From Heliocidaris erythrogramma (Eukaryota; Echinodermata; Echinoidea; Camarodonta; Echinometridae): a DNA stretch of 64,000 bases. The stretch is from the NCBI GenBank assembly GCA_025617745.1, contig CM046853.1, forward strand, positions 51,072,604-51,136,603. The letters run 5' to 3'. A program made the translations under genes and the position numbers. Every line of letters begins with the position of its first letter. The stretch's first letter is position 1. Shown piece by piece: positions 53,604 to 54,374 of this stretch. The notes under the pieces were generated by a model. That model saw nothing but the letters and a program-made list of their open reading frames with translations. It did not search any database and was not told the origin of the DNA.

Positions 53604-54374
53604 ATACGTCTGTATTGCAAGCCTTATTTCTATTTAAAGTGATTTTGTGATATCACAAATTCGAATTTGTGATATCACGAATTCAATTTTTGATATCACA
53701 AATTCCCATTGGTTTATCACATAAACCCAATTTTTGATATCAAGAAATCGAATTTGTGATATCACAAATTGAATAAAAATTCGATTTCTTGATATCAAAA
53801 ATTGGGTTGATGTGATAAACTTATGAGAATTTGTGATTTCAAAAATTCCCATTGGTTTATCACATAAACCCAATTTTTGATATCAAGAAATCGAATTTGT
53901 GATATCACAAATTGAATAAAAATTCGATTTCTTGATATCAAAAATTGGGTTGATGTGATAAACTTATGAGAATTTGTGATTTCAAAAATTCCCATTGGTT
54001 TATCACATAAACCCAATTTTTGATATCCAGAAATCGAATTTGTGATATCACAAATTCACTTTGTGATATCACAAATTCGACTTTGTGATATCACAAATTG
54101 GAATTAGTGATATCACGAAATGGAATTAGTGATATCACAAAATGGAATTCTTGATATCACAAATTTAATTCGTGATATCACAAATTCGAATTTGTGATAT
54201 CACGAAGTGAATTTGTGATATCACGAATTGAATTTGTGATATCACAAATTCCATTTCTTGATATCAAAAATTGGGTTTATGTGATAAACCAATGGGAATT
54301 TGTGATATCACAAATTCGAATTCGTGATATCAAAAAATCACTTCAAATAGTAATAAGGCTTGCCATACGTCCGT
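53604..54374. mobile_element. GATATC-palindrome array element with 10-bp flanking repeats
   Basis: The element (53614-54364, 751 bp) is flanked by ATACGTCTGT (53604) and ATACGTCCGT (54365), a 10-bp direct repeat with one mismatch. Its ends are inverted: GCAAGCCTTATTTCTATTT and, on the minus strand, GCAAGCCTTATTACTATTT, then AAGTGATTTT. The interior is almost wholly a series of about 21-bp units of the form AATTTGTGATATCACAAATT, each itself palindromic. I count about 23 GATATC cores in 700 bp. A larger 143-bp period (starts near 53701, 53844, 53987) combines these with a second unit, CCCATTGGTTTATCACATAA, which also occurs inverted. A duplication of 9-10 bp with inverted ends would fit a Mutator-like non-autonomous element. 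No protein is encoded; translated frames only show the periodicity. Confidence 0.85.

Follow-up and report, generated by a model that had tools for sequence, protein, structure and literature searches.

The window analysed here is a stretch of 64 kb (64,000 nucleotides) from the genome of Heliocidaris erythrogramma (contig CM046853.1, positions 51,072,604 to 51,136,603). It contains a non-autonomous transposon of 755 bp, which has no genes of its own and many relatives in the same genome. The features of the element are given below in window coordinates, together with the kind of comparison by which each was placed.

53613..54367, no strand assigned: whole element, TAT...ATA, 755 bp (target-site duplication (TSD) pairs and whole-copy comparison)
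53607..53612, plus strand: left TSD, CGTCTG (6-bp rule from 35 end pairs)
54368..54373, plus strand: right TSD, CGTCCG (whole-copy comparison)
53613..53646, plus strand: left terminal inverted repeat, 34 bp, starting with TATTGCAAGCC (inverted-repeat comparison)
54334..54367, minus strand: right terminal inverted repeat, 34 bp, with the minus-strand start TATGGCAAGCC (inverted-repeat comparison)
53641..54339, no strand assigned: palindrome array with 31 units, each about 22 bp long (23 with GATATC, 2 with GATTTC, 6 variant), set on a lattice of roughly 11 bp (counts, with variant units read from the sequence)
53685..53827, plus strand: 143-bp higher-order repeat, copy 1 (repeat comparison)
53828..53970, plus strand: 143-bp higher-order repeat, copy 2, with 3 differences from copy 1 (repeat comparison)
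53971..54056, plus strand: 143-bp higher-order repeat, partial copy 3 of 86 bp, with 1 difference from copy 2 (repeat comparison)
53711..53727, plus strand: variant unit GGTTTATCACATAAACC of the left arm, in the left-arm state TTTATCAC (arm comparison)
54274..54290, minus strand: variant unit GGTTTATCACATAAACC of the right arm, likewise in the left-arm state (arm comparison)

The outer 34 bp of the element are inverted repeats, which bears out the inverted ends proposed in an initial annotation of this DNA, and the arms inside them are inverted copies as well. The left end of the window copy reads TATTG and the right end ..CCATA. The 10-bp direct repeat that the initial annotation saw on the flanks is present at 9 of its 10 positions, but only six of these bases (CGTCTG / CGTCCG, a 5/6 match) constitute the TSD as judged from other copies; the remaining matches are part of the element end or coincidence. 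If CGTCCG is the older state, the change within the window TSD is one of CG to TG, and the short copy L042, with the TSD CGTGCG / CGTGTG, also has one C/T difference. No open frame of 80 or more amino acids lies within the element, and scans of the window against Rfam and for tRNA gave 0 matches.

The palindrome array overlaps the inner ends of both terminal repeats. The segment 53604-54374 (771 bp) holds 23 exact GATATC where about 0.4 are expected (mean 0.42, maximum 4 in 2000 dinucleotide shuffles of the segment), and other 771-bp windows of the 64 kb, taken in 50-base steps with the surroundings of the element left out, hold at most 3. The density of cores noticed at first sight is thus real, as are the palindromes of about 21 bp described around them, but the latter are imperfect: their mean identity to GAATTTGTGATATCACAAATTC is 88%, and 5 are perfect over 20 bp. 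The centres of 25 units (23 GATATC and 2 GATTTC) are spaced by 21, 22, 33 or 44 bp. The six variant units of type GGTTTATCACATAAACC, read from the sequence in either orientation and partly decayed, fill the lattice positions that fall within spacings of 44 bp. A period of 10.95 bp fits the 25 centres best, with a phase coherence of 0.88 vs 0.19 at 10.5 bp, so that adjacent units stand nearly on one helix face; at a helical pitch of 10.5 bp per turn they would drift slowly around the helix. Positions 7, 8 and 10 from the centre, which were not used in picking the units, are invariant in all 25. The 143-bp higher-order period claimed initially is found in two full copies and an 86-bp third. The junction unit of this block occurs at only four loci, all containing the window copy itself (among 125 loci, L031-L155, many of them overlapping), and the block therefore seems private to the window copy; a relative of the 143-bp sequence with 91% identity over 147 aligned positions is present at L053.

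Several other repeats are seen in the window. An 8.5-kb direct duplication with 99.8% identity (1-8500 and 18478-26968), the first copy of which ends at a 500-N gap (8501-9000), may reflect a recent duplication event or a second haplotype that was not purged from the assembly. The repeat at 13891-14448, with inverted and tandem parts and periods of 101 and 146 bp, is possibly another foldback-like element, and 46592-47339 is a MITE-shaped inverted repeat whose arms, each of about 200 bp and 88% identical, flank some 350 bp. A 330-bp tandem repeat of about 2.9 copies lies at 47425-48405, with inverted relatives beside the N gap (9001-9601). Two frames at 40982-41870 resemble, by eye, the end of a LINE reverse transcriptase, and similar text is found in L153, inside a member of the transposon family; a Pfam search of these frames gave 0 matches for one and only MutS_IV below the cut-off for the other.

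Search of the genome for the terminal sequence, as the initial annotation had suggested, revealed many other copies with the same ends. A 31-base end pattern (up to 3 mismatches) has 209 matches in the host genome with 0 for the backwards control, a 25-base pattern with 1 mismatch has 199 (control 0), and a right-type end pattern has 59 (control 0); as such matches count ends, the copies are fewer. The 31- and 25-base patterns each gave coordinates for about 100 of their matches. With the element as query, the genome (1.06 Gb, 26 contigs) gives at least 132 match rows, 40 of 438 candidates being scored; the rows are partly redundant, since they overlap and one copy may appear on both strands. 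The family is dispersed and is characterized by the termini TATGG..CCATA, a terminal inverted repeat longer than 30 bp, a 6-bp TSD and subterminal arrays in which a 22-bp dyad is repeated. Taken over 76 distinct ends, the consensus starts with TATGGCAAGCC; the shortest complete copy has 143 bp (L089) and the longest about 4.5 kb (L152), and 3 of the 39 array loci have no end recognizable at up to 4 errors. Among individual copies, two elements abut at L040 and share one CGGACG, and on contig 8 (about 45435584-45441409) one element is nested in another with exact TSDs on both. A galactosyltransferase frame and a bile-acid symporter frame adjoin two family copies, and two arrays of a 15-bp tandem repeat, TTTACCTCTGGCATT in both orientations, lie beside a family member at L078:5430-6591.

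The length of the TSD was derived from 35 end pairs, 20 of them from the listed coordinates (71-bp pieces) and 15 within single loci. Immediately outside TAT...ATA, 26 pairs have the same 6 bp on both sides, 7 (the window copy included) match at 5/6 and 2 are worse, namely L092 (3/6) and L078 (1/6, left end damaged); three further whole copies (L152, L154 and L155) have exact TSDs. Mean identity at 6 bp is 0.929; with shuffled partners (500 shuffles) it averages 0.583 and reaches at most 0.657. At 4, 5, 7, 8, 9 and 10 bp identity in the true pairs stays within the shuffled range, the maximum of which it approaches most closely at 4 bp (0.386 vs 0.393) and 8 bp (0.375 vs 0.379). A TSD of 8 or 10 bp, as suggested by the window copy alone, is ruled out by this comparison. 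Alignment of the flanks of other copies, also suggested initially, thus shows that the target-site duplications are real, their length being 6 bp and not 10. Together with the end matches (209 against a control of 0), a 6-bp TSD conserved at 5/6 or better in 33 of the 35 pairs strongly supports the earlier view of a transposed unit. The flanks of 43 ends carry C in 43, G in 40, any base at the two following positions, then C in 37 and G in 37, i.e. the target consensus is CGNNCG; these are the ends with at most 2 end-motif errors (43 of 47, the 4 left out including the left end of the window copy), and some of them are the two ends of one copy.

The layout of the family is best seen in three larger copies (L078, L079 and L080, 2.4-3.4 kb), which consist of a terminal repeat, the palindrome array, a 37-bp tandem array and an interior, followed by the same parts in inverse order. 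They contain 20 exact TGATATCA units each on the left and 10, 13 and 12, respectively, on the right, and the TSDs of L079 and L080 are exact. The same arrays lie just inside both ends of the larger copies in general (2.4-4.5 kb), with a variable number of units. This anatomy agrees with the initial suggestion of a transposon with amplified subterminal sites; that the units serve as sites is what we infer.

The two ends of larger copies differ at two places. A diagnostic site in the end reads TTATT or TTTTT on the left vs ATTTT or ATATT on the right. The variant unit, compared in five copies, has the form TTTATCAC in the three left arms that are intact at this site (the other two being cut or altered there), TTTAGCAC in three right arms and TTAAGCAC in one. 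The window copy has the left state in both arms at both diagnostic sites. Left and right arms are not distinguished by whole-arm scores (240 bp), and the reading of two left arms therefore rests on the end site and the variant unit. As judged from these letters, the window copy is a short form with both ends of left type that lacks the interior found in large copies. When the 35 pairs are sorted by the end site, 8 prove to be of left type at both ends (window, L042, L084, L092, L094, L098, L099 and L104), and all of these are between 150 and 755 bp in length. Among the eight, the TSD is perfect in 2, matches at 5/6 in 5 and at 3/6 in 1, whereas 24 of the other 27 pairs are exact; the two-left-end copies are therefore older, or in part owe their origin to rearrangement following insertion. 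Since six of the eight have such imperfect TSDs, the two-left-end state may have arisen after insertion, and the two copies with exact TSDs look as if they had moved in that state. A short member with two left-type ends is apparently repeated in tandem together with its flank at L036 (contig 12, about 40.569-40.572 Mb), where three right ends with similar flanks are spaced by about 1.3 kb.

A related autonomous element with the same ends, which the initial annotation had proposed to look for, was not found among the copies examined. The longest frames in 7 whole copies are of 51-119 amino acids and include no transposase. Nothing transposase-like was seen in five larger pieces, namely L151 (10 kb, left end not included), L152 (4.5 kb), L154 (3.75 kb), L155 (4 kb with a 500-N gap) and L153, a partial copy with an inserted stretch that looks LINE-like by eye. 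Pfam searches with 7 of the 11 frames of L151 and one frame of L079 gave only a weak DUF1249 match below the cut-off. A search of the genome for the integrase core rve_3 gave at least 81 matches (150 of 1463 candidates scored), of which one lies within 20 kb of any of 125 ends among the matches listed. This one belongs to an LTR-type integrase with H2C2 and CCHC domains. The copy L154 (exact TSD CGCCCG) has a 1.9-kb interior that is absent from L079, L151 and L152 and contains, at L154:2756-3001, the first half of a THAP domain (PF05485, E 5.9e-7). Apart from this piece, Pfam on 7 of the 23 frames of L154 gave DUF190 below the cut-off and no transposase. The THAP piece may be a captured exon or a trace of a partner protein.

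The position of the dyads relative to the ends is regular. The first exact TGATATCA dyad is centred 39.5 positions inside the terminus in 64 of 76 distinct ends, and an exact dyad lies within 90 bp of the terminus in all 76; the ends were drawn from loci found by array or end motif, so that ends without arrays could be missed. Counted from an end, runs comprise 1 to 23 exact units, and in short copies the run crosses the whole copy. Spacings between neighbouring units are within 1 bp of a multiple of 22 in 775 of 784 cases (39 loci; 828 units, 128 distinct), which are not independent because the family copies are related.

It is conceivable, but in our opinion rather doubtful, that the arrays are only passengers, i.e. 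a tandem repeat grown by replication slippage at palindromes in an element of the IS3EU type discussed below, with a role for no more than the first one or two units per end. That long arrays are not required for movement is seen from ends that have just one exact unit and from complete copies as short as 143-305 bp with exact (L084, L104, L108) or 5/6 (L089, L094, L099) TSDs, and stem-loop models for tandem growth in MITEs have been described (PMC8268682). The phase held at multiples of 22 bp, the single distance of the first unit in most ends with an exact unit never farther than 90 bp, and the presence of arrays in both arms of large copies speak against a passenger role. These points are not decisive, since related copies share array features by descent.

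IS3EU elements are described as having TA..TA termini and a TSD of usually 6 bp (PMC10045372), and a fungal set of members as having terminal inverted repeats longer than 30 bp, TAYGG..CCRTA termini and a 6-bp TSD (PMC12730594). The present TSD has this length (26 of 35 pairs exact, 7 at 5/6, 2 worse), and the family consensus has TAYGG..CCRTA termini and an inverted repeat of more than 30 bp, the left end of the window copy being TATTG. The likeness to IS3EU / GingerRoot covers TSD length, termini and terminal inverted repeat (PMC10045372, PMC12730594); the present copies differ in having no transposase frame, and palindrome arrays and a foldback layout are not mentioned in the parts of those papers that describe the group. 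Because no transposase was found, the filing under IS3EU rests on ends and TSD, by which the family is a candidate member. Another superfamily with 6-bp TSDs would be an improbable mover. Such TSDs are published for some hAT families (hAT6) and for Polinton, but among the descriptions compared only IS3EU/GingerRoot joins a 6-bp TSD to TA..TA ends, down to TAYGG..CCRTA. Two oyster satellites, CgiSat35 and CgiSat47, are reported to be similar to IS3EU (PMC8268682).

A single strand of the window element folds into one long, near-complete hairpin of -305 kcal/mol vs a mean of -86 (sd 5.6) for 20 shuffles. It is nevertheless very improbable that the palindromes are kept for extrusion of cruciforms or hairpins as intermediates of transposition or replication, as the hairpin energy is explained by the inverted duplication of the arms and pairing inside the units is not better than chance. 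In the window, 8.96 of 11 positions pair within a unit vs 9.08 with shuffled arms (p 0.78; 25 lattice units, a larger set of 33 units with 8 off-lattice matches having given p 0.047). Over 128 distinct monomers, whose invariant core is a matter of construction as they were picked by TGATATCA, the value is 8.46 vs 8.75, below all 3000 shuffles, because the C six bases from the centre tends to occupy one arm only. Position 5 from the centre is an exception, pairing somewhat more than expected (0.66 vs 0.59). Compensatory upkeep of the palindromes was thus found in neither test. Of the cruciform extrusion mentioned in the initial annotation, the ability of the strand to fold stands, but the arms vary independently or one-sidedly, without compensatory changes, and therefore pairing does not look selected. 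Such variation is more easily reconciled with half-sites for a dimeric protein than with a hairpin under selection, and is partly due to shared descent. The dimeric protein on the dyads would most likely be the transposase.

Long, internally repetitive terminal inverted repeats able to fold back, the mark of Foldback-type elements, are present in the window element and in the larger copies. TSDs are 7-8 bp long in the P superfamily, to which Galileo belongs. Although most foldback elements are placed in Mutator, with P as the exception (PMC4079207), including those most alike in layout (Tm1, PMC3169594, and Tetris, PMC4079207, in Mutator; Galileo, PMC3688188, in P), and although the window copy alone permits a direct repeat of 8 or 10 bp, membership in either superfamily is extremely unlikely, because with the 8- and 10-bp TSD rejected neither the Mutator length (about 8-10 bp) nor that of P is seen, identity at 7, 8, 9 and 10 bp showing no excess over shuffled pairs (at 8 bp the values are close).

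Comparison with the published descriptions of these elements shows likeness in layout and difference in detail. Tm1 of root-knot nematodes (Mutator/Foldback) has terminal inverted repeats with 1-9 motif units, mostly of 14 bp and variable between ends, but a 9-bp TSD, a Mutator-like (Phantom) transposase and a printed motif that is non-palindromic (PMC3169594). Tetris of Drosophila virilis is likewise non-autonomous, with tandem repeats in its terminal inverted repeats and no autonomous partner found; its repeats are of about 220 bp, its TSD is of 8-10 bp and Mutator was suggested for it (PMC4079207). Foldback4 of Drosophila melanogaster comprises non-autonomous copies of 627-2266 bp without frames, the bulk of each being taken up by palindromic ends; its modules, too, are repeated a variable number of times, but they are unrelated to the present ones (PMC2955051). 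A parallel in function is Galileo, which belongs to another superfamily and has long terminal inverted repeats with internal tandem repeats. Some of these hold further transposase sites, as shown by footprint and gel shift, for which a role in specificity was proposed; three sites are identified there and no array of self-complementary dyads is described, and binding shown for Galileo is inferred for the present element (PMC3688188).

Taken together, the family is probably a non-autonomous cut-and-paste transposon of foldback architecture with IS3EU-type ends, the dyads of which are putative protein-dimer sites aiding the transposase. A transposase of the IS3EU/GingerRoot lineage, encoded elsewhere, would bind the ends of the family. 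As the repeats of Galileo hold transposase sites, it is proposed by analogy that each GTGAT|ATCAC dyad may be the site for one protein dimer and that the ladder may assist the assembly of the transposase. The array would then supply many phased secondary sites contributing to transposase specificity and complex assembly, as proposed for the Galileo tandem repeats. Self-complementary, phased sites would allow an array to gain or lose length, or to change sides, with function kept, which would make its growth possible. A more tentative idea, to which we would give only limited credence, is that recognition of the ends depends on a ladder of self-complementary sites spaced by two helical turns, whereby the ends have lost fixed polarity and the arms are interchangeable.

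Open-licence literature, searched by the letters of the unit and by topic, contains in the texts reached no description of the present repeat and none of a foldback IS3EU family with palindromic arrays, Repbase entries lying outside the reach of such a search. Prokaryote, viral and phage sequence collections yielded nothing related (narrow viral scans 0, phages 0). A loose pair pattern gave 12 viral and 18 genome loci with 2-4 GTGATATCAC each and no array; the end-like match at one of these 30 (L024), at up to 4 substitutions, is taken as chance.

A sharp target preference, CGNNCG, is now given for an element with IS3EU-type ends. If true, a polarity-free ladder family would show an origin of repeat-filled foldbacks outside Mutator and P, with an integrase-like transposase and a CGNNCG target. 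The graded copies of one genome, from 143 bp to about 4.5 kb, many with exact TSDs and with 1 to 23 dyads per end, represent a natural series suited to the questions of how many secondary sites are needed, how satellite-like arrays grow in transposons and whether an IS3EU transposase uses the dyads.
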